This document shows positions 2,008 to 62,317 of a stretch of DNA of 64,000 nt, piece after piece. The DNA is from Armatimonadota bacterium (GTDB lineage Bacteria > Sysuimicrobiota > Sysuimicrobiia > Sysuimicrobiales > Sysuimicrobiaceae), in contig JAVKGW010000005.1 of assembly GCA_031460175.1 (NCBI GenBank), positions 62,001 to 126,000 on the forward strand, written 5' to 3'. The number at the start of each line of letters is the position of its first letter. The first letter of the stretch is position 1. The position numbers and the translations under genes were made by a program. The notes under the pieces were generated by a model that was not told the DNA's origin, searched no databases, and saw only the letters and a program-made list of their open reading frames with translations.

Positions 2008-2035
2008 TGAACCTCCGTCCTGGATTTTGCGACTA
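2008..2035 (+). promoter_or_regulatory. Candidate ECF-type promoter of the sigma/anti-sigma operon
   Basis: TGAACC at 2008-2013 is followed by exactly 16 bases and CGACTA at 2030-2035. The spacing and the GAAC / CG-C cores match the general form of ECF sigma promoters, which are often autoregulated. The sigma factor ATG is at 2091. The same arrangement recurs at 6418-6445 (TGAACC-N16-CGTCTA). The assignment rests on pattern only. Confidence 0.5.
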
Positions 2036-2090
2036 ATCCTGCGGAGGGCGCAGGGGTCCAGGCCCGGATCGCCGAAGCTCACGGGAGGCG

Positions 2091-2639
2091 ATGACGGACG
2101 AGGAGCTGCTGCGGCTCATCGCGCAGAAGGATCCCACGGCCTTCCGGGAGTGGTATGACCGGCACAGCCGGTCCGTGTACGGCTACCTGTATCGGATGCT
2201 GGGAGACGCGCACGCGGCGGAGGACGTGTTGAGCGAGGCCATGTTCGCGGTTTGGCTGGAGGCGGCCCGGTTCCGGGGAGAATGCCGGCCGCGGACGTGG
2301 CTGTTCCGCATCGCCCGGAACAAGGCGGTGGAGTGGCTGCGGCGGCGGTCCGCGGCCCGGGAGGACCTGGACGGGGAGGCGAGGGAGCCCGAGGGGCGGG
2401 GATCCGAGGGGACGGATCTCCGGCTCGCGGTGGAGCAGGCCCTGGGGGCCCTTCCCCGGGAGCAGCGGGAGGTGGTGGAACTCGCCTTCTTTTTCGGCTT
2501 CCCGTACGAGGACATCGCGAGGATCCTGGGCTGCCCCGTGAACACGGTGAAGACCCGGATGTTCTGGGCCAAGCGGAGGCTGCGGGATGCCCTCGGACCG
2601 GCGGAGGAAAGGGGGAGGGAGGAGGGATCAGGGACTTGA
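2091..2639 (+). CDS. ECF-family RNA polymerase sigma factor
   Basis: A 182-aa sigma-70 factor of the extracytoplasmic-function type. Region 2 is at residues 5-85, with DAHAAEDVLSEAMFAVW and the -10 recognition segment RPRTWLFRIARNKAVEWLRRR. After an acidic linker, region 4 is at about residues 115-170, with LPREQREVVEL and a helix-turn-helix in YEDIARILGCPVNTVKTRMFWAKRRLR. Its TGA stop overlaps the TTG start of the anti-sigma gene, so the two are translationally coupled. An ECF-like promoter about 55 bp upstream suggests autoregulation. Confidence 0.95.
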   Translation: MTDEELLRLIAQKDPTAFREWYDRHSRSVYGYLYRMLGDAHAAEDVLSEAMFAVWLEAARFRGECRPRTWLFRIARNKAVEWLRRRSAAREDLDGEAREPEGRGSEGTDLRLAVEQALGALPREQREVVELAFFFGFPYEDIARILGCPVNTVKTRMFWAKRRLRDALGPAEERGREEGSGT

Positions 2640-3214
2640 CGACGGACCACGAGCGGCTGAGGCGCTTGCTCCCGTGGTACGCGGCGGGAACCCTGGAGGG
2701 GGCAGAAGCCGCCGCGGTGGAGGAGCACCTCGCCGGATGCCCCCGATGCAGGCACGAGATGCAGAGCTGCTTGCAGCTGCGCAGAAGCCTCCAGAACCTC
2801 TCCAGCTCCCTCCCCCCTCCTCCTCCGGAGGTTCTCTCCCGCACCTGGACCCGCATCCTCCGGCACGAGCGTGAGCGGGGCCGTCCCGGTTTCGCCCGGT
2901 ACGCGGGGCTTATTGCGGCCCTCGCGGCCGCGTGGGTCGTGGCGGTGGCCGGCGTTGTCCCTCACCCCGGCCCCTTCGTCACCCTCGGCGTCGCCCGCCG
3001 GGAATCTTCCCCCGTGCTCCAGGTGGTCTTCCATCCGGGGACCACGGAGGCGGAGATCCGCGCCCTGCTGCAGGAGATCGGCGGCACCATCGAGGAAGGG
3101 CCTCGGGCAAGCGGGCTGTACCGGATCCGGCTGAGCAGGGACACGGATCCCGATCGGGCGGTAGAGCGACTCCGGCGGGATCGGGCGGTACTGTTCGCAG
3201 AACTCGAGCCCTAG
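2636..3214 (+). CDS. Membrane anti-sigma factor with zinc finger and subtilase-propeptide-like C-terminus
   Basis: The 192-aa partner of the ECF sigma factor. The TTG start overlaps the sigma stop (TTGA), behind a GGAGG-type site. The cytoplasmic part has the zf-HC2 anti-sigma signature His31-x3-Cys35-x2-Cys38. One transmembrane helix spans about residues 90-108. The exported part (about 126-192) begins VLQVVFHPG, continues with EAEIRALLQEIGGTI and ends AVLFAELEP. This layout looks like the I9/fervidolysin-type propeptide at the N-terminus of the neighbouring subtilase (DRILVRF ... LVEYAEPD). Such a domain could bind or be cut by an exported subtilase to control sigma release; that role is inference. 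Confidence 0.85.
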   Translation: MTTDHERLRRLLPWYAAGTLEGAEAAAVEEHLAGCPRCRHEMQSCLQLRRSLQNLSSSLPPPPPEVLSRTWTRILRHERERGRPGFARYAGLIAALAAAWVVAVAGVVPHPGPFVTLGVARRESSPVLQVVFHPGTTEAEIRALLQEIGGTIEEGPRASGLYRIRLSRDTDPDRAVERLRRDRAVLFAELEP

Positions 3215-3221
3215 GAGCTGG

Positions 3222-4847
3222 ATGCGCCCCCTGCATCGGGTAGGCCTGTACCTGGTCCTCCTGGCCGTGGCGGTCCTCCCGGCCACGGGAAGCCCGGCCG
3301 GTGCCACGGGAAAACCGGACCTCCCCGCTCCTCCCGGAAGCCCCGCGGAGCAGCCACCAGGTCCTCCTCCTCACCCGGGGATTCCCGGTTCCCGGGAATT
3401 CCCGGGAGGGGGTCAAGTGCCGACCTCCTCGGCGGCCGCGCCCGGGGTCCGGGTGGTCTCGGAGAGCGTGGGGTTCGAGGGAGGAGGGCACACCGCGGCG
3501 GTGGAGCCTGGCCGACCCCTGAGGGGAAGGATCCTGGTGGAGGCGGATCACCTGGCGGAGGTGGTGGCCCGGTGGCAGGTGGACGGGGAGGTGGTGGGGG
3601 AGACCCGGGTCCGGTTGGAATCGGGTCGGAAGACCCTCCTGAGCCCCCCGCTCCCAACGGGGAAACCCGGCCGTTACGTCCTCGACGTCTCCATCGAGGG
3701 TGCCCGTACCTTCGCTACTTCTTATACGGTGAAGGGGAAGGCCGGCCCCGACCGGGTGCCGGACGAGGTGGTAGCCCTCCTGGATCCCTCAGAAGGCCTC
3801 CCGGAGCGGGTTGCTGTGCAGTCAGGGCTCCTCCTCCTCCGGGCCCACGCGCTCCCGTCCACCGGGGAAGTACTGGCCACCTACCGGGTTCCCCCGGGAC
3901 TGGACTCTGAGGCCGTGCTGGAGCGGCTCCGGAAACTTCCCGGCGTCCGGTCCGCGGACCTGGTGGTCCTCCTGGAAGGAGCCGCGGGCGGAGACCTGCG
4001 GGCCCTGCAGTACGCGCCCGCCCTTCTCGAGGTGCCGAGCGCCCTGAAGTGGACCCAGGGCCGGGATGTCCCCATCGGCCTCGTGGACACGGGCTTGGAC
4101 GCCTCGCACCCGGAGTTCGAGGGCCGGGTGGTCCGGGCGGGGGACGTGACCTCCTCCCCGTACGAGCCCGAGGTGCACGGCACCGCGGTGGCCGGGGTGA
4201 TCGTGGCCCGGCAGCGGCTTGTAGGAGTGGCACCCGGATCCCGGATCCTGGCCATCCGGGCCTGTACCGCGGTCCGGAAAGGAGGGCTTGAGGCCCGCTG
4301 CCGCACGGACGACGTGATCCGGGCCCTGGACCTCGCGGCGAGGTCGGGGGCCCGGATCGTCAACGTGAGCCTCGGAGGACCCCCGGACGCGGTCCTAGGG
4401 TGGACGGTGCAGAGGCTCCTCGAGGCCGGGATCCTGGTGGTGGCGCCCGCGGGGAACGGGGGGTCAAACCGGGCTCCCCCCTACCCCGCGGCCGTCCCGG
4501 GCGTGGTGGCGGTGGGTGCGACGGACCGCAGGGATCGGCTTGACCCCACCAGCACCACCGGGAGCTTCCTGTCCGTGGTCGCTCCGGGCGTGGACATCCT
4601 CACCGCGTTCCCGGCCGGCCGGTACCTCTTCGTATCCGGGACCTCCTTCGCCGCGGCCCACGTGTCCGGGGCCGCGGCCCTCCTCCTGGAGATCCTTCCG
4701 GGCCTCGGGCCAAAGGCGGTGCGGGTGGCCCTGGAGAGGACCGCCCAGGACCTCGGCCCGCCTGGATTCGATCCCGAGTACGGGTGGGGGCGCATCTCCG
4801 CCTGCCGGCCGCTGGAGCTCGTCAGGCGCACCGTTCGGTGCCGCTAG
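3222..4847 (+). CDS. Secreted S8 family serine peptidase (subtilase)
   Basis: A 541-aa exported subtilase. The signal peptide is at residues 1-28 (hydrophobic LYLVLLAVAVLPATG). A Pro/Gly-rich segment follows, then a beta-rich region (about 80-175), a propeptide-like part (about 195-265, ending VRSADLVVLLEG), and the catalytic domain. The triad is Asp289 (GLVDTGLD), His319 (VHGTAVAG) and Ser475 (SGTSFAAAH), with the Asn in APAGNGG. The gene starts seven bases after the anti-sigma stop and probably belongs to the same operon. It is therefore a good candidate partner or target of that sigma system. It ends five bases before a convergent lipoprotein gene. Confidence 0.94.
   Translation: MRPLHRVGLYLVLLAVAVLPATGSPAGATGKPDLPAPPGSPAEQPPGPPPHPGIPGSREFPGGGQVPTSSAAAPGVRVVSESVGFEGGGHTAAVEPGRPLRGRILVEADHLAEVVARWQVDGEVVGETRVRLESGRKTLLSPPLPTGKPGRYVLDVSIEGARTFATSYTVKGKAGPDRVPDEVVALLDPSEGLPERVAVQSGLLLLRAHALPSTGEVLATYRVPPGLDSEAVLERLRKLPGVRSADLVVLLEGAAGGDLRALQYAPALLEVPSALKWTQGRDVPIGLVDTGLDASHPEFEGRVVRAGDVTSSPYEPEVHGTAVAGVIVARQRLVGVAPGSRILAIRACTAVRKGGLEARCRTDDVIRALDLAARSGARIVNVSLGGPPDAVLGWTVQRLLEAGILVVAPAGNGGSNRAPPYPAAVPGVVAVGATDRRDRLDPTSTTGSFLSVVAPGVDILTAFPAGRYLFVSGTSFAAAHVSGAAALLLEILPGLGPKAVRVALERTAQDLGPPGFDPEYGWGRISACRPLELVRRTVRCR
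3390..3407. repeat. 18-bp perfect palindrome inside subtilase gene
   Basis: A perfect inverted repeat, TCCCGGGAATTCCCGGGA, preceded by further TTCCCGG units. It encodes part of the Pro/Gly-rich segment behind the signal peptide. It may only be low-complexity coding sequence. Confidence 0.6.
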
Positions 4848-4851
4848 GCCT

Positions 4852-6348
4852 TCAGGGCGCGATGAAGACTGTCCGGCTGTAGGACTCCCGGATCGTGCGG
4901 GGAATGGGCTCCCGGGCGAGCACCGCGGAGGGCCGCACCCGGAGGGGGATGGGCGCCCGGAGGGTGCGGGCGGGGGAGATGCCCACCACGGAGCCCGTGC
5001 GGCCCAGGACCCAGCCCGCGGGCCGCTCCGAGTCGGTCGCGTAGACGTACACGAAGGAGCCGGGGCGCAGAAGGGAAAACGGGAGGCGGGCAGTACCTCC
5101 GTCTCCGCCCCGGACCCCGACCCAGACCGGACGGCCCGCGGAGTCCCGCAGGTTCACCTCGTGGGCCCCGGCTCCGGGCGCCGGGGTCCACCGGAAGGAG
5201 GAGGTGCCCGCGTCCCAAGCGGGGGCCCCCGGAGCCTGGAGGTAAGAGACGAGGATGGAGCCGTCCCGGAACGGCGAACGCGTGACGGAGACCTCTCCGG
5301 TCCCGTCCTGGACGGTAGCGTCGTAGGCGTACCCCAGGGCGAATACCCCCACGAAAGGACTCGTCGCACCCAGCACGGGGGGAACCGGGACTTCCTGCTG
5401 TACCGCCAGCTGCCCGATGAACGGGCCGGTGTAAGCCTGGGCCAGCTCCAGGTCGTCCAGTTCTCCCTGGGGACGGGCGAGGACGTACACGAAGCTGAAC
5501 CCGTTGCGGCCCAGGGCTCGGAGCACGTCCCGGGCCGCGGTGTCGTAGAGGAGGAGGAGGCTCGCGGTCACGGGTGCCAGGCGGACGGTGCCCGCCTCCG
5601 CGCTTCCGTCCGGCGGGAGGCTCACGGAGGGGATGAGGGCGTACTCCCGGAAGAACTGGACGTCCCCGGAAGGGGATCGGCCCGTGTAGTTGCCCGCGAA
5701 GAAGGGCCGCGTGGAGCCGTGCCGGGCCACGGAGTCCGTCCACACCTCGAACGTCCCGTCGTCGTTCGTGATCCCGGAATCCATCCAGGGCGGGCTCGTC
5801 CGGTTCCCGTATGCCCCCCACCACACGAACCCGAGAGTCCCGGGACTCCCAGGCTGCTCGCCGCGGGGGAGGAAGCCCGGTTGGGGGAAGCCCGAGGAGT
5901 TCAACAGCCTGCCGCGGACCGCGGGCCGCGGCTGGGAACCCGGCGGGGGGGATCCAGCGGGTTTCCGGAGGGGGAGGGCGATCCGCAGCTGGAACTGGGT
6001 CTCCGAGGTGTGCAGGTCGTACACGGAGAGGGCCGCGGCTCCGGCCTGGTCCGGGGGAAGCACGTGGATCGCGTAGGCGAACGAGCCCCCGAGCCCCGTG
6101 TCGAAAACCCCGGAGGCGTCCGTGTAGACCACCACGGTCCGGTTCTCGGTCTCCACCGTGACCCGGGCACAACCGATGGGCCTCCCGGAAACCTGGCCGT
6201 CCGTGCCCATCCCCTCCACCACCACACCTCGCAGGGTGTTGGTCCCGGGAGGCGCGGGCCCGGTGGGGCACGCGGCGCCGGGCGATCCCCCGAATCCCCC
6301 GCACGCGGCGAGCACCAAGGCCGCCACCAGGAGAAACCCTCGACGCAT
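4852..6348 (-). CDS. Large lipoprotein with carboxypeptidase-regulatory-like domain, function unknown
   Basis: A 498-aa exported lipoprotein that I do not recognise as a named family. The start chosen is the ATG giving MRRGFLLVAALVLAACGG, with lipobox Cys16 and a GGAGAG site upstream; a longer open frame to 6519 lacks a signal peptide and is unlikely. Residues about 35-110 (LRGVVVEG, then VVVYTDASGVFDTGL) look like a carboxypeptidase-regulatory or Cna-B-like beta sandwich, common in surface proteins. The remainder is beta-rich with several aromatic strands and no catalytic motif. It is transcribed towards the subtilase, with only four bases between the stop codons. Confidence 0.8.
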   Translation of the reverse strand: MRRGFLLVAALVLAACGGFGGSPGAACPTGPAPPGTNTLRGVVVEGMGTDGQVSGRPIGCARVTVETENRTVVVYTDASGVFDTGLGGSFAYAIHVLPPDQAGAAALSVYDLHTSETQFQLRIALPLRKPAGSPPPGSQPRPAVRGRLLNSSGFPQPGFLPRGEQPGSPGTLGFVWWGAYGNRTSPPWMDSGITNDDGTFEVWTDSVARHGSTRPFFAGNYTGRSPSGDVQFFREYALIPSVSLPPDGSAEAGTVRLAPVTASLLLLYDTAARDVLRALGRNGFSFVYVLARPQGELDDLELAQAYTGPFIGQLAVQQEVPVPPVLGATSPFVGVFALGYAYDATVQDGTGEVSVTRSPFRDGSILVSYLQAPGAPAWDAGTSSFRWTPAPGAGAHEVNLRDSAGRPVWVGVRGGDGGTARLPFSLLRPGSFVYVYATDSERPAGWVLGRTGSVVGISPARTLRAPIPLRVRPSAVLAREPIPRTIRESYSRTVFIAP

Positions 6349-6417
6349 CTGCGCTCTCCGAATCCCTGAAAATTCGATGCCCAATCCGGAATACCTGGCT
6401 TCCGGCCGAGGCGCCGG

Positions 6418-6445
6418 TGAACCGCCCCGGCCCGGGGGGCGTCTA
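6418..6445 (+). promoter_or_regulatory. Candidate ECF-type promoter of the secreted-protein/LPS-transport operon
   Basis: TGAACC at 6418-6423, sixteen bases, then CGTCTA at 6440-6445, matching the element before the sigma factor in both boxes and spacing. The predicted transcription start near 6452 leaves a short leader with GGAGG at 6465-6469 and GTG at 6476. The downstream genes run to 14350 in one direction with gaps of 12 bases or less, so this promoter could serve the whole Lpt run. Confidence 0.5.
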
Positions 6446-6475
6446 TTGGTGTAGAATACCGCGAGGAGGTTAAGG

Positions 6476-7063
6476 GTGCCCCGGGCGATGTTGCTGTTCC
6501 TGGTCCTCGCGCTGGCCACGGGGGCTGCGGCTCAGGCAGACGGGCGGCTCCTCGTGGTCCGGGTGCACCTGAGCGGCCCCGTGGACGACGGGCCGGAGGC
6601 GGGCCGGTACTTCGTGGCCTTCAGCACCCTGCCCGGGCTCCTCACGGGCCCGACTCCCTCCGGGGAGAACTGGACGCACTACGCCCTGTACCATCGGGGC
6701 CGGTTCTTCTTCGCGGCCCGGCGCACGGTGGATCTCCCACCGTCTCTGTTCCGGACCACCCTGCCTCCCGAGCCATGCAACTGCGGCAGCGTGGGCCCGG
6801 ACCGCAGGTCCCTGAGCGTGGAGGTCCCCCTCTCGCGCCTTGCGGACTCGGGCCGGCTGCAGGGGCCGATTAAGATCAACGTGGTCACCACGGACCAGTG
6901 GTACCGGCCCCTGGACGCCCTGGGCCGGGGGATCGAGGACTCCTTGGGGTTCGTCTCCTTCGACCCCGCCCGGGACGTGATGGTGCGCGGGGAGGCGCCT
7001 GCGGGAAACGCCCCGCCGGCTTACGACGTCGTGGGCGTGGAGGTCACCCTCCGAGTTCCTTGA
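6476..7063 (+). CDS. Secreted protein of unknown function
   Basis: A 195-aa exported protein. The signal peptide is AMLLFLVLALATGAAAQA (cleavage near residue 22). The GTG start has GGAGG six bases upstream. The mature part is beta-rich, with an isolated CNCG at about residue 101 and no catalytic pattern I recognise. It stands first in a run with the Ig lipoprotein (12-base gap) and the lpt genes, downstream of the second ECF-like promoter. This placement suggests a role in envelope biogenesis or stress, but no function can be read from the sequence. Confidence 0.8.
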   Translation: MPRAMLLFLVLALATGAAAQADGRLLVVRVHLSGPVDDGPEAGRYFVAFSTLPGLLTGPTPSGENWTHYALYHRGRFFFAARRTVDLPPSLFRTTLPPEPCNCGSVGPDRRSLSVEVPLSRLADSGRLQGPIKINVVTTDQWYRPLDALGRGIEDSLGFVSFDPARDVMVRGEAPAGNAPPAYDVVGVEVTLRVP

Positions 7064-7075
7064 GGAGGTGCACAG

Positions 7076-8623
7076 ATGCGGTGGCTGGCCTTGGCCCTAT
7101 CCGCGGTGCTCCTGGCGGGGTGCGCGGAGTCCAACCTGATCCGGGGAGCGGCCACGGACCGCACCCCGCCCACGGTGACCGCCACGGAGCCCGCGAACGA
7201 GGCCCAGAACGTCACGGAGGGCCGAATTACCGTCACCTTCAGCGAGCCCATGGCCACGAACACCGTGCAGCTGCGAGCTAACCCCAGCCTCACCCTGGGG
7301 GTGGCCACCTGGTCAAACGCGAACCGCACCGTGACCTTCGTCCCCTCGGACCTCCGACCCAACACCACGTACACCGTTACCGTCACGGGGCGGGACCTGG
7401 CGGGGAACGACCTGCAGCAGCCCTACACCTTCCGGTTCACCACGGGCTCCGTCGTCCAGTCCGGGGCGGTGACCGAGGGGTTGCTGCGGGGCCGGGTGTT
7501 CGCGGGCGCGGACGAGCGGGTGTACGCGGTTTTCCTCGCCTACCTCGTGGGCCTCGGCGAGCGGGCCGCGGCGACCCTCACGGAGGACCAGCGAACCCTC
7601 CGGGAAACCGTGGAGCGCACCGCGCCGGAGGCGGTACGAAAGGTCCGGGAGTTCCTCGGCCAGCATCCCGCCACCGTGCGGGACCTATCGGAGTACGCCC
7701 TGTGGCTCACCCCGGACTTGCGGGTCGCCCCGGTCCCGCAGCCCGTGCAGGGAACCTCCCGGACGGGCCCCGCTTCCCCGGGGCCCGCGCGTCCGGGTCC
7801 TTCCCCCACCACGGGTCCCGTGCCGGCGAGCCCCACACCCACCGCAAGCCCCTCCTCCCGTGCCAACCTGCGGGGGGCGAGCGCCGGGCCCGGAGCCCCC
7901 GCGGCCCAGGCCAACCCCTCCCCGGCCGCGGGGCAAACCCGAAACGGGGTGGTGCAGCGGCTGAGCGGGTTTGACGCGCTGGTCCGGGAGCTCTACGCGG
8001 AGGCGAAGGGGCAGGACCTCTGGGCGAGGGCCCGGGAGGCGCATGAGCGGGAAGTCGTCCAGCTGCGGGACGCGGGGGAGGACCGGTTGCGGCAGGCCGC
8101 CACCTATCTCCGGATCTCGAGCCTCCCCTTCGCCCGACTGGTCCTCGTGCCCAACCTGTTGGCGCCCCGGGACTCCCTCGCGGAGGTACAGTTCGGGGAG
8201 GTCCTGCACGTCTTCACGGGTCCGTCCACCGGCCCCAACGTGCGGGGGGTCGTTCGGGTCTTCCTCCGATCCGTAGTCACCCCCCTCTTGGCCCAGTACC
8301 GGGAGGCCGCCTTACAGTCCCGGGAACTCTTCGACCTCGTCAAGCAGGAGGCGGAGGCCCGGGGATGGGAGGACTGGGAGACGGTAGTGCGGGAGAGCCT
8401 CGTCCGGGCCGTGGAGGCCCGCATGTTCCTCCCCAACCCTCAGGAGCAGTCGGACTACCTGGATGCCACCTTCAACGAGGGGCTGGTGCTCGTGCGGCAC
8501 TTCGCCCAGCGCCTGGTGGACCTGGAGCGGGGGCAGGTCAACCTCCCGCGGTTCGTACTGGACGCCCTCCGGAACGTGAACGTGCCGCAACTGCGTCAGC
8601 AGTGGCAGGGGAGGAGGAGGTAG
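7076..8623 (+). CDS. Lipoprotein with N-terminal Big_5 (SbsA Ig-like) domain
   Basis: A 515-aa lipoprotein. The signal peptide ends LLAGC with Cys16. Residues about 28-122 form an Ig-like domain of the Big_5/SbsA type: PPTVTATEPANEAQNV at the start, then ITVTFSEPM, then NTTYTVTVTG and YTFRFTTG. Residues about 215-285 are a disordered Pro/Ser/Thr/Ala-rich linker. The C-terminal half (about 290-515) is helical and charged, without a family I recognise. A strong GGAGGTG site precedes the ATG. The gene ends seven bases before lptF, so it may assist envelope assembly. Confidence 0.82.
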   Translation: MRWLALALSAVLLAGCAESNLIRGAATDRTPPTVTATEPANEAQNVTEGRITVTFSEPMATNTVQLRANPSLTLGVATWSNANRTVTFVPSDLRPNTTYTVTVTGRDLAGNDLQQPYTFRFTTGSVVQSGAVTEGLLRGRVFAGADERVYAVFLAYLVGLGERAAATLTEDQRTLRETVERTAPEAVRKVREFLGQHPATVRDLSEYALWLTPDLRVAPVPQPVQGTSRTGPASPGPARPGPSPTTGPVPASPTPTASPSSRANLRGASAGPGAPAAQANPSPAAGQTRNGVVQRLSGFDALVRELYAEAKGQDLWARAREAHEREVVQLRDAGEDRLRQAATYLRISSLPFARLVLVPNLLAPRDSLAEVQFGEVLHVFTGPSTGPNVRGVVRVFLRSVVTPLLAQYREAALQSRELFDLVKQEAEARGWEDWETVVRESLVRAVEARMFLPNPQEQSDYLDATFNEGLVLVRHFAQRLVDLERGQVNLPRFVLDALRNVNVPQLRQQWQGRRR

Positions 8624-8630
8624 CGGATCC

Positions 8631-9767
8631 ATGCCCTCCCTCCTCGACCGGTACGTGGCCCGCGAGCTCCTCTCTCCGTTCCTCGCAGGGGTCTTCGCGT
8701 TCCTCGTCATCCTCATCGGCGACATCCTCTACGTGCTCGCGGAGTACCTGGCGCGGGGACAGGTACCGTTGTGGGCCCTTCTGCGCCTGTTCTTCTACAA
8801 ACTCCCCCACATGCTAGTGATCACCTTCCCGGTCGCCACCTTGCTCGGAACCCTGCTGGGGATCGGGCGGCTCACGAAGGACGGGGAGATCATCGCCCTC
8901 CGGATGGCGGGGCTCCCCCTCACCCGGATCTTCCTCCCCGTGATGGGGTTCGGGCTCGTGGTGAGCGTCCTCAGCTTCGGGGTGAACGAGTACCTCACGC
9001 CCCTCGCGAACCGGAAGGCGGATGAGTTGGTGCGCCGCACCATCTTCCGCGAGGTCTTCCCCAACATCAAGCAGGACGTCTTCTTCCGGGGCCCCCAGAA
9101 CCGGTACTTCTACGTGCGGCAGGTGGACTACACGAACCGGACCCTGCAGGGGGTGATGGTGTACGAACTGGGAGGCGCCTTCCCCCGCCTCATCACCGCC
9201 CAGCGGGCTACCTTCGGGGAAGGGGTGTGGGTGCTGGAGCAAGGGGTGATCCGGGAGCTGGACCGGAACGGGTTCACGAGCTACGAGGCGGGCTTTCAGC
9301 GGTTCGAGCTCCGGGTGGACGTGGACGCGGAGGGGTTCCTGCTGCAGCAGAAGACCCCGGACGAGATGTCCGCCTCGGAGCTGCGGCAGCATCTCCAGCA
9401 GCTCCGTCAGAGCGGGGTAGACCCCCAGCCCCTGGCGGTGGACTACTACTTCAAGTTCGCGGCCCCGCTCGCGGCGCTGATCTTCGCCTTCATGGCCGCC
9501 CCCCTCGGGCTCGTGGCGGCCCGGGGCGGGCACTACACGGGGGTGGGAGCCGCCATCGCCCTCGTCTTCGTGTACTACGCGGTGATGAGCACGGCCCGGG
9601 CCTGGGCCAAGGCGGGAACCCTCCACCCCTTCCTGGGCGCATGGGCCGCGAACCTGGCGTTCCTCGCGGGCGGCGCCCTCCTCTACCTGTACACGGAGGG
9701 CCTGCTGCGGGGCCGGCGGGCCCAGGCGGCTCCTCCGATCTCCCCCCAGCCGGCGGAGGCGGGATGA
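8631..9767 (+). CDS. lptF: LptF/LptG-family LPS export permease
   Basis: A 378-aa inner-membrane permease of the YjgP/YjgQ family, part of the LptB2FGC ABC transporter that extracts LPS. It opens with the family pattern LLDRYVARELLSPFLAGVFAF, has further membrane segments near residues 50-120 (VITFPVATLLGTLLGIGRL), a periplasmic beta-jellyroll region (about 130-260), and three C-terminal helices (about 270-360, AAPLAALIFAFMAAPLGL). Only one such permease is encoded here, whereas many bacteria have separate LptF and LptG, so it may act as a homodimer or its partner may lie elsewhere. The stop overlaps the lptC start (ATGA). Confidence 0.92.
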   Translation: MPSLLDRYVARELLSPFLAGVFAFLVILIGDILYVLAEYLARGQVPLWALLRLFFYKLPHMLVITFPVATLLGTLLGIGRLTKDGEIIALRMAGLPLTRIFLPVMGFGLVVSVLSFGVNEYLTPLANRKADELVRRTIFREVFPNIKQDVFFRGPQNRYFYVRQVDYTNRTLQGVMVYELGGAFPRLITAQRATFGEGVWVLEQGVIRELDRNGFTSYEAGFQRFELRVDVDAEGFLLQQKTPDEMSASELRQHLQQLRQSGVDPQPLAVDYYFKFAAPLAALIFAFMAAPLGLVAARGGHYTGVGAAIALVFVYYAVMSTARAWAKAGTLHPFLGAWAANLAFLAGGALLYLYTEGLLRGRRAQAAPPISPQPAEAG

Positions 9768-10336
9768 GGACCTTGGCGGTGGTGGGGATCCTCGCCGGGC
9801 TCGCCGCGGGATTGGCGTGGGCCATGCGCACGGAGCCCGTGCCTCCCCAGGCGGTGGCCACACCCGCCCCCCCCGTAAAGCTCCGCGCGGAGGAGACCCG
9901 GGTAGTGGTCCGGCACAAGGGAGTGCCCCAGGTAGACCTGCGGGCCCGGGAGGCGGAAGTCAGCCCGGATCAGCAACGCGCCACCCTGAAGGAAGTGGGT
10001 CAGGCCACCGTGTTCCGGGAGGGGAAGGAGTTCCTGAGGGTGCGGGCGAAGCGCATCGTCTTCAACCGGCAGACCCAGAATTTCGTGGCCACCGGGGAGG
10101 TGGAGGTCACCTCCCCTGACGGGGACTGGCTGCGGGCGCCTGAGATGGTGTACCACAACGACCGGGCGGTCCTCGTCTTCCCGAAGGGCGTGGAGTTCCA
10201 GCTCGGCCGGAATCACGCCCGGGCCCGCCTTCTGCGTTACCACGTGCAGCGGGACGTGGTGGAGATGGAGGGGGAGGTGGATATCCAGCTGGACGTCCGC
10301 TCCCTTCCCAGCCCCGGCCCGGAGGGAGGCCGATGA
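9764..10336 (+). CDS. lptC: LPS export periplasmic protein LptC
   Basis: A 190-aa LptC-like protein: an N-terminal membrane anchor (residues 3-21, LAVVGILAGLAAGLAWAM) and a single periplasmic beta-jellyroll domain (about 36-180). The repeated pattern of VVRHKGVPQVDLRA, RVRAKRIVFN and NFVATGEVEVTSPDG is that of the LptC/OstA fold. LptC docks on the inner-membrane permease and hands LPS to LptA. The ATG overlaps the lptF stop, and the stop overlaps the lptA start. The order permease-LptC-LptA supports the call beyond the fold alone. Confidence 0.87.
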   Translation: MRTLAVVGILAGLAAGLAWAMRTEPVPPQAVATPAPPVKLRAEETRVVVRHKGVPQVDLRAREAEVSPDQQRATLKEVGQATVFREGKEFLRVRAKRIVFNRQTQNFVATGEVEVTSPDGDWLRAPEMVYHNDRAVLVFPKGVEFQLGRNHARARLLRYHVQRDVVEMEGEVDIQLDVRSLPSPGPEGGR

Positions 10337-11541
10337 GGTACGGGTTGGCCTTCGCCCTCTTCCTGGGAGCGGTCCTGGCCGCGCCCGTCCTCGCCCAGCA
10401 GCCCATGCGGGCCCCGGAGCCCGGGCAGGGGCGGCTGCAGGCGGACCGGATCCGGTACGACGCCCGTAACGGCGTCTTCGAGGCCCGGGGAAACGTGCGC
10501 CTCGTGCTGGGAGACGTCACGGTCACGGGCGAGGCCCTCACCTACCACGAGCGTACCCGCACCGCCTGGGCCGAGGGGAACGCGCGGGTGGTCCAGGGCC
10601 CCACCACCCTATCCGCGCCCTCCATCCGGTACGAGGCGACCCCCCGCGTGGTGCACGCCTCCGGGGGCGTCGTGGTGCAGCAGCCGGACCTCATCCTCCG
10701 GGCGGGCCAGCTCACCTACGGGCTGCAGGACCAGGCGGTGAAAGCCTCCCAGGAGGTGGCGGTGGAGCAGCCGGACCAGACCCTCCGGGCTCGGGAGCTC
10801 ACCTACCGGGTGCGGGAGAGGGTCGCGGACGCCTCGGGAAGCGTGCGGTTGGAGACCAAGGACTCCACCCTGGAAGGCGAGGCCATGTGGGCGGACCTCG
10901 CGAAAAAGGAGGCCCGGGTACGGGGTCCCGCGCGCCTCGTGCGGAAGGGGGGGCCTCCGCCCCGGGGCCGGGAGCAGGACCGGGTGCTCGCGGCCCTCGC
11001 GAAGGAGGACACCACCATCACCGCCTCCCGGGCCTTCTGGTTCGCCTGGCAGCAGACCAACGAAGCCCGGGCGGAGGGAGAGGTGCGCATCGTGCAGGTG
11101 GACAAGGAAGCCCGGGCGGAGGAGGCCCGCTATTCCGAGAAGGAGGACCGCATAGAACTCGTGGGAAAGGCGGAGGTCCACCAGCGGAGCGGGCAGTGGT
11201 TGGTGCGGGAGAGGTTGGTCCGGGCCCCGGAGACGGAGGAGGAGAGAAAGGCCCTGGAGACGCCGGCCACCATCCAGGCGGACCGCATCGTGATCTACCT
11301 CAGCACCCGCGACGCGGTGGCCACCGGCAACGTCCGGGTGACCCAGGGCAAGCGGAGCGCCACCGGCGAGCGGGCGGAGTACGACGACCGCAACGGGATC
11401 ATCCTCCTCGTGGGAAGGCGGGCCCGCATGGAGCGGGAGGACGGCGCGTGGCTCCTGGCGGAGCGGGTAGTGGTCTCCCTCAAGGAGGACACCTTCGAGG
11501 CCTACGGTGCCGTGGACACCACCTTCCCGGTGCGGCCGTGA
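10333..11541 (+). CDS. lptA: LptA/OstA-like periplasmic LPS bridge protein, extended
   Basis: A 402-aa exported protein with signal peptide (residues 1-21, ending VLAQ) and repeated OstA-type strands. LQADRIRYDARNGVFEARGNVRL opens the domain, and related units recur (ALTYHERTRTAWAEGNARV, LTYRVRERVADASGSVRL, ADRIVIYLSTRDAVATGNVRV). It is about twice the length of typical LptA (about 180 aa), so it likely carries two jellyroll units in one chain. In the known pathway LptA forms the periplasmic bridge between LptC and LptD. It is flanked by lptC (4-base overlap) and the M23 lipoprotein (GTGA overlap). Confidence 0.88.
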   Translation: MRYGLAFALFLGAVLAAPVLAQQPMRAPEPGQGRLQADRIRYDARNGVFEARGNVRLVLGDVTVTGEALTYHERTRTAWAEGNARVVQGPTTLSAPSIRYEATPRVVHASGGVVVQQPDLILRAGQLTYGLQDQAVKASQEVAVEQPDQTLRARELTYRVRERVADASGSVRLETKDSTLEGEAMWADLAKKEARVRGPARLVRKGGPPPRGREQDRVLAALAKEDTTITASRAFWFAWQQTNEARAEGEVRIVQVDKEARAEEARYSEKEDRIELVGKAEVHQRSGQWLVRERLVRAPETEEERKALETPATIQADRIVIYLSTRDAVATGNVRVTQGKRSATGERAEYDDRNGIILLVGRRARMEREDGAWLLAERVVVSLKEDTFEAYGAVDTTFPVRP

Positions 11542-12242
11542 GGTTCGCGGCCCTCTTGCTCTGGCTTCCGTTGCTGGCCTCTGGGTGCGGGGCGCTCTCC
11601 CTGGAGCCTCCTAACGACGGCCCCACCCCGAGGCCCGGAAACCGGATGTTGGCGCTCTTCGACCGGCCCTTCCAGGGTGACCCGGGGGTCACCAACGTCT
11701 TCGACCACCAGTACCCCGGACAACCCACGGGCAAGGGCTACTCCCTTACCTTCCGGGGAAACCGGTTCCTGTTCGGACAGGAGGGCCATACAGGGTGGGA
11801 CTGGCTGCTGTGGCGGGGAACCCCCGTGTTCGCGGTGGCGGACGGAGAGGTGGTGAACGCGGGGGTCCTGCCTCCCTTCTTCTGCCCCCTACCCGGGTTC
11901 GGGCGGACGGTCTCGGACCAGCTCGCGGTGGAGATCCTGGTGACCGCGCCGGACGGCACCCGGTTCCGGGTGGGCTACCACCACCTCGATCGGGTGGACG
12001 TACGGGTGGGGCAACGGGTAATGGCCGGACAACAGGTGGGGCTAACGGGAAACACGGGCTGCAGCACGGGGCCGCACCTGCACTTTGAGGTCAAGCGGCT
12101 CGATGGCACGAACTCCGGAGCCCCGACCTGGGTGGACCCCTTCGGGTGGGAAGGTCCCTTCCCGGACCCGTGGGCCCAACACCCGCAGGGCGCTCCGAGC
12201 TTCTGGCTGTGGAAGCCCGGGGCGGCTCCGCCGACTCCGTAG
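11538..12242 (+). CDS. M23 family metallopeptidase lipoprotein
   Basis: A 234-aa lipoprotein peptidase. The GTG start overlaps the lptA stop. The signal peptide ends LLASGC (Cys17). The LytM/M23 domain shows HTGWDW (zinc His and Asp of the HxxxD motif, about residues 86-90) and GPHLHFEV (HxH, about residues 179-181). A four-Cys set (PPFFCPLPG, GNTGCSTG and others) may include disulfides. M23 enzymes cleave peptidoglycan cross-links or act as amidase activators. Its position between lptA and lptD suggests it opens or shapes the wall during LPS-bridge or LptD assembly; that link is inferred from context. Confidence 0.9.
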   Translation: MRFAALLLWLPLLASGCGALSLEPPNDGPTPRPGNRMLALFDRPFQGDPGVTNVFDHQYPGQPTGKGYSLTFRGNRFLFGQEGHTGWDWLLWRGTPVFAVADGEVVNAGVLPPFFCPLPGFGRTVSDQLAVEILVTAPDGTRFRVGYHHLDRVDVRVGQRVMAGQQVGLTGNTGCSTGPHLHFEVKRLDGTNSGAPTWVDPFGWEGPFPDPWAQHPQGAPSFWLWKPGAAPPTP

Positions 12243-12253
12243 GGGAATCCGGC

Positions 12254-14350
12254 TTGCGCATCCGGACCGGTCTGCTCGCCGTCCTCCTGGCCCTCGCGCT
12301 GGTGACCCCCGCCTCCCCCCAGGAGGAAGGGGTCCCCGTCCGGGTACGGGCCGACTACCTCCGGTACGACCGGGCCCGGCAGGTGGTGTACGGGCTGGGC
12401 AACGTGGTGGTGGAATACCAGGACCTCACCCTCCGGGCAGAGGAGGTGCTGCTGGAACTGGAGCCCATGGAGCTGGTGGCCCGAGGGAGGGTGGTCCTGG
12501 AGAGCGCGGGGCAGGTGGTGACCGCGGAGCACCTCACGTACAACCTGCGAACCCGCCTCGGCAGCCTGGAGGCCGCGGAGACCCGGTGGCGGGACCCCTT
12601 GACTCGGGATCCCATCCACATCCGGGCGGGCCGGATGGAGGGCAATCCGGAACAGCGGATGTGCTTCAGCAACGCGGAGGTCACCACGTGCGACCTGGAC
12701 GACCCCGGAGCTCCGTACAAGCTCGCGGCCCGCGAGATCGAGTTCATCCCCCAGGACCGGGTGGTGATGCGGGACGTCTCCCTCTACCTCTTCGGCGCGA
12801 AGATCCTCACCCTACCCTTCTTCATCCTCTTCCTCCGGGAGCCCCGGCAGACCCGGATCCTGCCGCTGGTGGGCTACAGCGAGGAGGAGGGGTTCTTCGT
12901 CAAGGTGACCACCACGTACTTCTTGAGCGAGGAGCACCTGGGGTTCGTGTACACGGACTGGATGGAGCGGATCGGGTTCGGGGGAGGGGTCGAGCACCTG
13001 TGGCGGTACAACCGGGGTCAGGGGGACTACTTCGTGTACTTCCTGCAGAACCGGAAGGTGGCCAGCACGGACCTCCGGCTGCGGCTGCAGCACCGCCACG
13101 ATTTCGGAGGGGGACTCGCCGTGGGCGCCTTCTACGACGAGTTCCGCAGGCAATTCGGGGACGGAGGCCTCACGCGCTCCCTGTACACCAGCCTGGACGC
13201 CGTGTACCTCGACCCCGTGCAGTCCGGCAACCTCTTCGCCGCCTACACGCGGAACGACACCCCTCAGGGGTTTGCCGGGGACTTCCTCAACGGCCTCCTC
13301 CAGTACAACCGGACCCTCCTCCCCAACCTCACGGGCCGGCTGCAGATCCCCTTCAGCCAGCGGGGCGGGGTGGGCTTCACGGACCTGGAGGCCACGCCCC
13401 GCCTGGACCTCTCGTACACCGGACCCGGATACACCCTCCAGCTGGTGGCGGAGCAGCGGCTGGATCTGGAAGGGGAGGCGTACACCGGAGACCTGATCCC
13501 CTCGGTCTCTCGCCTCCCCGAGCTGAACTACACGGGGTTCCCCCAGCCTCTCCGGTTGGGAAGCCTGAACCTCTTCCTCCAGCTGCAGGGATCCGCGGGG
13601 TACTACGTGGAGACCGCGCCCTCCGGGGCGGGAATGCTCTCGCTCCCCGCGGGACGGCTGGATGTGCAGGCAATCCTCTCGGGCACCCACACCCTGAGCC
13701 CACAGACCTCCGCGAACCTCCAGCTCTCCTTGCGGACCTCCTACTACACCACGGGGAACCTGCGGGCCCTGGTGTTCGGGAACCTCGGGTTCAGCCAGCA
13801 GATGGGCCCACGGCTCACGGGCCGCCTGACCTACACCTACAAGGATGGGGCGGGCGACACCCCCTTCCAGTTCGACCGGGATCCCACCCGCATCAATACC
13901 CTGCAGGCGCAGCTCACCTACCAGGACCCCGCCCTCACCGCGGAGATCGCGATCCCGTACAACTTCATCCGGGCCCTCCCGGACCCGGTGGTGCTGCGGG
14001 TGCAGTGGTTGCCGCTTCCCGGGTGGACCCTGGCCACCGCGGCCCAGTACGACCTGACCCTGGGGAGTCTCGCCACGGTGGAAGCCCAGGTGCGGGCGCG
14101 GCTGTCGGATCAGTGGGAGGTGGTGTACGCGGGGCGGTACACCGCGACCACGGGGCAGCTCTTCCACGACACCATCCAGCTGAACTACTACCAGCAGTGC
14201 TGGGCCGCGAGCGCCACGTACCGGGGCGCGGACCAAGCGGTCTGGCTGGAGGCCTGGCTCACGGCCTTCCCGCAGGCGGTGGGGGCAATCGGCCTGGGCC
14301 AGACGGGCGTGCTCTTCCCCCAACCTCTCCTGCCCACACCCACGCGCTAG
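12254..14350 (+). CDS. lptD: LPS-assembly outer-membrane protein LptD
   Basis: A 698-aa LptD homologue. The TTG start at 12254 gives a clean signal peptide (IRTGLLAVLLALALVTPASPQ). The N-terminal OstA/LptA-like domain is at about residues 28-200, with RVRADYLRYDRARQVVYGLGNV, then TTCDLDDPGAPYKL and the typical LYLFGAKILTLPFFI. The rest is a beta-barrel built of short amphipathic strands. Cysteines at MCFSNAEVTTC and near the C-terminus (NYYQQCW) fit the disulfide-bearing positions of the family. LptD inserts LPS into the outer leaflet. This is direct evidence for a diderm cell with LPS. The upstream open frame to 12146 was rejected because it overlaps the M23 gene and lacks an RBS. Confidence 0.92.
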   Translation: MRIRTGLLAVLLALALVTPASPQEEGVPVRVRADYLRYDRARQVVYGLGNVVVEYQDLTLRAEEVLLELEPMELVARGRVVLESAGQVVTAEHLTYNLRTRLGSLEAAETRWRDPLTRDPIHIRAGRMEGNPEQRMCFSNAEVTTCDLDDPGAPYKLAAREIEFIPQDRVVMRDVSLYLFGAKILTLPFFILFLREPRQTRILPLVGYSEEEGFFVKVTTTYFLSEEHLGFVYTDWMERIGFGGGVEHLWRYNRGQGDYFVYFLQNRKVASTDLRLRLQHRHDFGGGLAVGAFYDEFRRQFGDGGLTRSLYTSLDAVYLDPVQSGNLFAAYTRNDTPQGFAGDFLNGLLQYNRTLLPNLTGRLQIPFSQRGGVGFTDLEATPRLDLSYTGPGYTLQLVAEQRLDLEGEAYTGDLIPSVSRLPELNYTGFPQPLRLGSLNLFLQLQGSAGYYVETAPSGAGMLSLPAGRLDVQAILSGTHTLSPQTSANLQLSLRTSYYTTGNLRALVFGNLGFSQQMGPRLTGRLTYTYKDGAGDTPFQFDRDPTRINTLQAQLTYQDPALTAEIAIPYNFIRALPDPVVLRVQWLPLPGWTLATAAQYDLTLGSLATVEAQVRARLSDQWEVVYAGRYTATTGQLFHDTIQLNYYQQCWAASATYRGADQAVWLEAWLTAFPQAVGAIGLGQTGVLFPQPLLPTPTR

Positions 14351-61966: not shown

Positions 61967-62317
61967 ATGCGGAGCCTGGCCTGGGCCGGGCTTTCGGCTC
62001 TGGCGGTCCTACTCGTTACAGGTGGGCTCGTGTGGGCTCACGGGCTCTCACAGACTGCCCCGCCCTCCGCAGGTCCCGCACACGGGCCCGGACAGATGCG
62101 TGGGCCGATGAGCCCGACCACGCAGGATCCGGAGGCCATGCCGTCTATGGTGGACGCGTGCGTCCGGGCGATGCAGGACCCTCAGATGCAGCGGCACATG
62201 CAGGACCACATGTCCGACCCGCGAATGCGGGACATGATGGCAGACATGATGCGGAGCATGATGCCCGGCATGCCCATGATGCCGATGATGCCCATGATGC
62301 CGGGCCCGTCCCGGTGA
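61967..62317 (+). CDS. Met-rich exported protein
   Basis: A 116-aa exported protein. The signal peptide is residues 1-28 (AWAGLSALAVLLVTGGLVWA). The mature chain is rich in Met and His, with MQRHMQDHMSDPRMRDMMADMM and a C-terminal MPGMPMMPMMPMMPG repeat. Such Met clusters bind Cu(I) in periplasmic copper-handling proteins (by family analogy). ATG 61967 has GGAGG eight bases upstream. It heads a run with a BNR propeller, a BlaI repressor and an M56-like protein. Confidence 0.78.
   Translation: MRSLAWAGLSALAVLLVTGGLVWAHGLSQTAPPSAGPAHGPGQMRGPMSPTTQDPEAMPSMVDACVRAMQDPQMQRHMQDHMSDPRMRDMMADMMRSMMPGMPMMPMMPMMPGPSR

Follow-up and report, generated by a model that had tools for sequence, protein, structure and literature searches.

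The window analysed here, 64,000 nucleotides of an Armatimonadota bacterium (positions 62,001 to 126,000 of contig JAVKGW010000005.1, assembly GCA_031460175.1), carries a gene for an extracytoplasmic function (ECF) sigma factor and an operon for lipopolysaccharide (LPS) transport (lpt), both preceded by the same promoter pattern. The model we favour, and consider fairly probable, is that of an autoregulated ECF sigma factor that recognizes TGAACC-N16-CGWC and has a small local regulon, consisting of its own operon, the lpt operon and a unit encoding a lipoprotein and a foldase, with an anti-sigma factor whose propeptide-like domain would be read by a subtilase. That this sigma factor uses these promoters, that the signal is envelope stress and that there is a proteolytic step are what we infer.

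The initial annotation had described TGAACC-N16-CGACTA at 2008–2035, ahead of the sigma gene, and TGAACC-N16-CGTCTA at 6418–6445, ahead of the lpt operon, and we find both at these positions on the forward strand as exact matches, each a predicted ECF promoter with a –35 box TGAACC and a –10 box CGACTA or CGTCTA. In the organism's own genome (G000, 2.49 Mb in 18 contigs, of which the window is C5:62001-126000), the exact motif TGAACC-N16-CGWCTA occurs at these two sites only, and the reversed motif used as a genome-wide control has no exact match. Allowing at most one mismatch, the window has 3 matches where 0.24 are expected, and none of 100 shuffles reached 3. The shorter core TGAACC-N16-CGWC is present in 2 of the 63 leaders in the window, only those of the sigma gene and the lpt operon, with a chance probability of ~2e-4 per leader. 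Between the CGWC core and the start codon there are 57 nt in the sigma leader and 32 nt in the lpt leader. The genome-wide scan proposed in the initial annotation gives the two sites for the strict motif and only background for the form with one mismatch. We also tried to define a wider regulon with a relaxed motif (GAAC-N17-CGWCTA, one mismatch) and rejected it, with 141 matches compared to 268 in the reversed control. Matches to this motif and to the strict motif with one mismatch are nearly all intragenic, so there is no basis for a wider regulon, and since the relaxed forms are at background only strict matches backed by position and conservation are informative. The expected spread of the motif to other envelope genes was not borne out; the regulon as predicted is instead small and confined to the sigma locus.

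The core motif is matched 15 times in G000 and 19 times in the genome of a second species of the same genus (G001). The 15 matches exceed the 2 found for the reversed control, with most of them in coding sequence. This excess is not evidence in itself, because CTG-AAC codon pairs favour the word in coding sequence, and for this reason only matches ahead of genes were counted, the intergenic or coding assignment being made with a codon-usage gene caller trained on the window. Of the 15 matches in G000, five are intergenic and precede a gene, and three of these cluster within 7.2 kb around the sigma gene; the probability of two of the other four intergenic matches falling within 7.2 kb is ~5e-5. 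Genome-wide, G001 has just three intergenic matches, and they mark the promoters that are clustered in G000: those of the sigma gene and of the lpt operon, and a third one. Two further intergenic matches in G000, one before a gene for a 407-residue protein and the other before a gene for a 152-residue secreted protein, are unconserved in G001 and were kept out of the regulon. A match before a 107-residue frame (L223) in a third species, HR32 (G006), was set aside as doubtful.

The third conserved promoter, TGAACC-N16-CGAC, is located on the reverse strand about 0.7 kb to the left of the window start (G000:C5:61298-61323, equivalent to L113:5299-5324). According to domain matches, it is followed by a gene for a Big_5 lipoprotein (L113:3963-5108) and then by one for a PpiC/SurA-like foldase. 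The leader of this unit is about 190 nt long and holds conserved blocks; Rfam gave no match at the loci, this leader included. The counterpart promoter in HR32 (L244, contig C128) also lies ahead of a lipoprotein gene, which is followed by a gene encoding a protein with a PpiC domain (27% identity). In the third units, promoter, leader and the signal peptide of the lipoprotein are conserved from G000 to HR32, and the mature lipoproteins are unrelated. As read from the sequences, one lipoprotein passenger has replaced another behind a shared expression module.

Orthologues of the sigma factor are present in 2 of the 60 other genomes searched, G001 (82%) and HR32 (64%), the others reaching at most 46%. 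The motif before the sigma gene is conserved in all three species, as TGAACC-N16-CGACCA in G001 and TGAACC-N16-CGACTA in HR32. The lpt promoter of G001, TGAACC-N16-CGTCTA, is identical to that of G000 in its –35 and –10 boxes. When the sequences of G000 and G001 are anchored on the motif, the –35 box and the –10 core agree fully at all three promoters, compared to 33–43% identity in the 60 nt upstream of it (33% at the lpt promoter), an ungapped count that represents a lower bound. MAFFT alignments have the same promoter boxes invariant. HR32 has the core motif at its sigma promoter and at its lipoprotein/foldase promoter. The motif is therefore conserved in relatives, one of the checks suggested in the initial annotation: both promoters are found in the sister species and the sigma promoter also in HR32, with diverged flanks.

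The presence of the motif before genes follows the presence of the sigma factor. None of 92 core matches in four family members that lack the sigma factor (G002, G003, G004 and G005) lies before a gene start, compared to 11 of 58 in the three genomes that have it (Fisher's test, 1.5e-5; 0.002 with each set of orthologous promoters taken as one). A spacer of 15 nucleotides gives 11 matches, none before a gene, and a spacer of 17 gives 6 matches, none of the 4 examined being before a gene. The core motif is absent from the leaders of the ten other sigma-70-family genes of the genome and from those of 25 ECF paralogues of relatives. The footprint in G001, the co-occurrence of motif and sigma factor in seven genomes, and the spacing and paralogue controls indicate that both promoters are probably recognized by a single sigma factor, as proposed initially; the claim does not extend to exclusive control. 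Gene order supports the link as well. G000 and G001 share the order sigma, anti-sigma, subtilase, divergent lipoprotein gene, lpt operon. HR32 has lptF-lptC-lptA immediately followed by the sigma cassette, whose –35 box overlaps with the stop codon of lptA. The link between sigma factor and lpt is thus also positional, in two distinct arrangements.

The sigma factor (2091..2639, forward strand, 182 residues) contains sigma70 regions 2 and 4 (PF04542 and PF08281) and scores above the cut-off of the NCBIfam model for ECF sigma factors, TIGR02937. Its score against the RpoE equivalog TIGR02939, 76.4 bits with a cut-off of 236, places it outside the RpoE family. The anti-sigma gene (2636..3214, forward strand) overlaps the sigma stop codon by 4 nt, and this gene order is the same in G001 and HR32. 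G001 also has, beside flagellar genes, a paralogue of the sigma/anti-sigma/subtilase cassette that is frameshifted and decayed and lacks the motif (G001:C8, L157 4770-7051).

The anti-sigma factor combines an N-terminal zf-HC2 domain, one predicted transmembrane segment and a C-terminal domain resembling a subtilisin propeptide. Both Pfam families, PF13490 (zf-HC2) and PF22148 (the fervidolysin propeptide family, Fervidolysin_NPro-like), are above cut-off here and in both orthologues, and H31, C35 and C38 of the HxxxCxxC zinc-binding motif are invariant in the three proteins. AlphaFold2 predicts a β-α-β-β-α-β fold for the C-terminal domain with a predicted local distance difference test (pLDDT) score of about 70–90. 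The top five matches of this domain in a Foldseek search of the PDB are all subtilisin propeptides, with E values of only 0.010–0.027. No RseA, RseB or DegS domain is among the domain matches of the anti-sigma factor. RseB or DegS genes are not recognized beside the sigma gene in any of the three species, the rest of the genome not having been searched for them. We therefore agree with the initial annotation that the sensor is unrelated to RseA/DegS, the anti-sigma factor being built of a zf-HC2 and a propeptide-like domain.

The adjacent subtilase (3222..4847, forward strand, 541 residues; PF00082, 1.3e-43) has a predicted signal peptide, a propeptide-like segment at residues ~182–248 and the catalytic residues D289, H319 and S475, which are invariant in the three orthologues. 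Its AlphaFold2 model is poor overall (pLDDT 45) and was used for the secondary structure of residues 182–248 only. In the HR32 subtilase (L003:4782-6374) the likely oxyanion-hole Asn (AGN) is replaced by Thr (AGT) with the D/H/S triad kept, and from this replacement its activity may be reduced or lost. All three species encode a second subtilase in the vicinity of the sigma cassette (73–1233 in the window, L003:7929-9347), the copy in the window having a clear propeptide (PF22148).

The architecture of the anti-sigma factor and the adjacent subtilase make a plausible candidate sensor. Most likely the zf-HC2 domain of the anti-sigma factor keeps the sigma factor at the membrane, and the neighbouring secreted subtilase probably reads the external propeptide-fold domain. 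Envelope trouble would alter the occupancy or activity of the subtilase, or free it to act on the anti-sigma factor. Cleavage of the anti-sigma factor would then release the sigma factor, which would transcribe its own operon, the LPS-export operon and the lipoprotein/foldase unit. The outcome would be a rise in LPS-export capacity, in periplasmic-folding capacity and in sigma synthesis. Action of the subtilase on the propeptide-like domain is inferred from sequence, and the alternative is a serious one: the sigma factor reads the lpt promoter, and the subtilase is only a product of the regulon, serving as a quality-control or maturation protease, with the propeptide-like domain sensing something else or only inhibiting the protease. 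We regard this as quite possible, if somewhat short of likely. The contact between protease and anti-sigma factor is a prediction only, and the replacement of the likely oxyanion Asn by Thr in HR32 means that catalysis may not be essential. Against it, the sigma, anti-sigma and subtilase genes are kept as a set by all three species, each of which has the propeptide domain at a score above the Pfam cut-off. The most specific form of the sensor model, an independently arisen sigma-E-like response in which the propeptide domain is a bait for the co-encoded secreted subtilase and their engagement reports the state of the envelope, triggers cleavage and switches on LPS export and the foldase, is a tentative proposal that we rate as rather unlikely.

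Several observations weigh against the favoured model as regards the promoters. The motif with one mismatch is at background level genome-wide (15 matches, 13 in the control). The lpt footprint comes from two species, the lpt start of HR32 lying off its contig. The lipoprotein passengers of the third unit vary between species, and G001 has no close orthologue of the third-unit foldase, its contig ending first. Other ECF sigma factors could share this promoter specificity. The sequence TAGAAT (6452..6457, forward strand), 6 nt after CGTCTA, is conserved at the lpt start in G001 and, across genera, in G003 (L108:9121-9126), which lacks the sigma factor and retains GGAACC-N16-CGTTCG together with TAGAAT. 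From this combination, another sigma factor may act at the lpt start and a housekeeping promoter may overlap it.

TAGAAT is a possible overlapping housekeeping –10 box or part of the 5' leader. If it is the former, the lpt operon might be driven mainly by a housekeeping promoter, with the upstream ECF-like match minor or incidental. The conservation of TAGAAT and the need for basal expression of LPS-export genes speak for this. It has neither a properly spaced –35 box nor an extended –10 that we can recognize in the window, and a scan of 12 kb for sigma-70-type promoters found none. Nor does it explain why TGAACC and CGTC are exactly conserved where flank similarity drops to 33%, or why identical boxes are present at two other promoters. 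An ECF start 6–9 nt after CGTCTA would make TAGAAT the 5' end of the transcript. We consider a mainly housekeeping promoter improbable. Less probable still is recognition of the lpt promoter by another ECF sigma factor encoded in this genome, with the neighbouring one merely similar in specificity. The genome does hold ten further sigma-70-family genes, and G003 keeps GGAACC-N16-CGTTCG in the absence of this sigma factor, but none of the ten has the motif in its leader, and strict matches ahead of genes go along with the presence of the neighbouring sigma factor. Chance similarity between two GC-rich leaders is hardly credible, for although relaxing the motif brings it to background level, both promoters are conserved in two species, a third promoter is conserved too, and there are no matches before genes in the relatives without the sigma factor.

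The operon downstream of the second promoter contains seven co-directional genes by our count, one fewer than the eight given in the initial annotation; the gaps of at most 12 bases are upheld, and the next gene is 166 nt beyond. All seven are on the forward strand. The first encodes a secreted protein of unknown family (6476..7063, 195 residues) with no Pfam match, and the second a Big_5-domain lipoprotein (7076..8623, 515 residues; PF13205, 5.7e-21). These are followed by an LptF/LptG permease (8631..9767; PF03739, 2.3e-92; the NCBIfam LptG and LptF models below their cut-offs), an LptC-like protein (9773..10336; PF06835, 1.4e-7), an LptA/OstA-like protein (10333 or 10345..11541; PF03968, 5.6e-23; NCBIfam LptA above cut-off) and an M23 peptidase (11538..12242; PF01551, 5.8e-21). 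The last gene (~12254..14350) encodes an LptD-like outer-membrane protein, in keeping with the lptD assignment made initially, on evidence that is weak but consistent: NCBIfam LptD at 6.2e-8, a PDB profile match to LptD (8h1r) at 0.0066, and PF04453 at 0.0031, below cut-off. Homologues of LptF/G, LptC, LptA and LptD are thus encoded together with LpxC, as in an Lpt system, the LptD evidence being weak; the presence of LpxC implies that lipid A is expected. A second lptF-bearing contig of G006 (C147, L114) lacks the motif, and its lptF looks closer to that of G003 than to the other copy in HR32; this contig may be mis-binned. The lipoprotein gene divergent from the lpt operon (4852..6348, reverse strand) is a conserved neighbour in G001 and HR32 according to homologue searches and has a weak CarboxypepD_reg match below cut-off.

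In E. coli, lptD is transcribed by RNA polymerase with sigma-E, and LptD folding requires SurA (PMC6358824). The system described here resembles E. coli sigma-E (RpoE)-RseA-DegS in its ECF sigma factor, membrane anti-sigma factor, predicted autoregulation and a predicted regulon that includes LPS transport, with the motif carried by the lpt operon and by a SurA/PpiC-like foldase unit. The parallel to sigma-E drawn in the initial annotation is strengthened by the third conserved promoter, before a lipoprotein and a PpiC/SurA-like foldase. The system differs in that the sigma factor is far under the RpoE cut-off (76 versus 236 bits), the anti-sigma factor is of the zf-HC2 and propeptide-like type, and the predicted regulon comprises three units around the sigma gene. 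In B. subtilis, the sigma-M, sigma-V and sigma-W promoters have the form TGAAAC-N16-CGTC/CGTA, and the membrane anti-sigma factors of sigma-V and sigma-W are proteolysed. The box layout is very close to ours and has the same N16 spacing, but the anti-sigma families, lineages and targets are others, and the –35 box here is TGAACC. ECF54 sigma factors have subtilase/CHAT neighbours and a proposed proteolytic control, and are described as lacking an anti-sigma factor (PMC8999054). A subtilase gene likewise adjoins the ECF sigma gene here; the zf-HC2 anti-sigma factor is a difference, and the sigma factor does not belong to ECF54. The anti-sigma C-terminal domain shares its fold with subtilisin propeptides (inhibitor I9-like; 3cnq and 1scj) but is the outermost part of a membrane-bound anti-sigma factor and not the leading segment of a protease.

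In the literature searched we found no description of a sensor consisting of a zf-HC2 domain, a transmembrane helix and a subtilisin-propeptide-like domain with an adjacent subtilase, and within that literature this architecture is a concrete candidate for an undescribed sensor type. The predicted wiring is small, with three promoters, and is thus directly testable. The lineage is uncultured, and its sigma and anti-sigma factors are outside the RpoE and RseA families. This suggests that LPS export and outer-membrane folding helpers have been coupled to an ECF sigma factor on more than one occasion in evolution.

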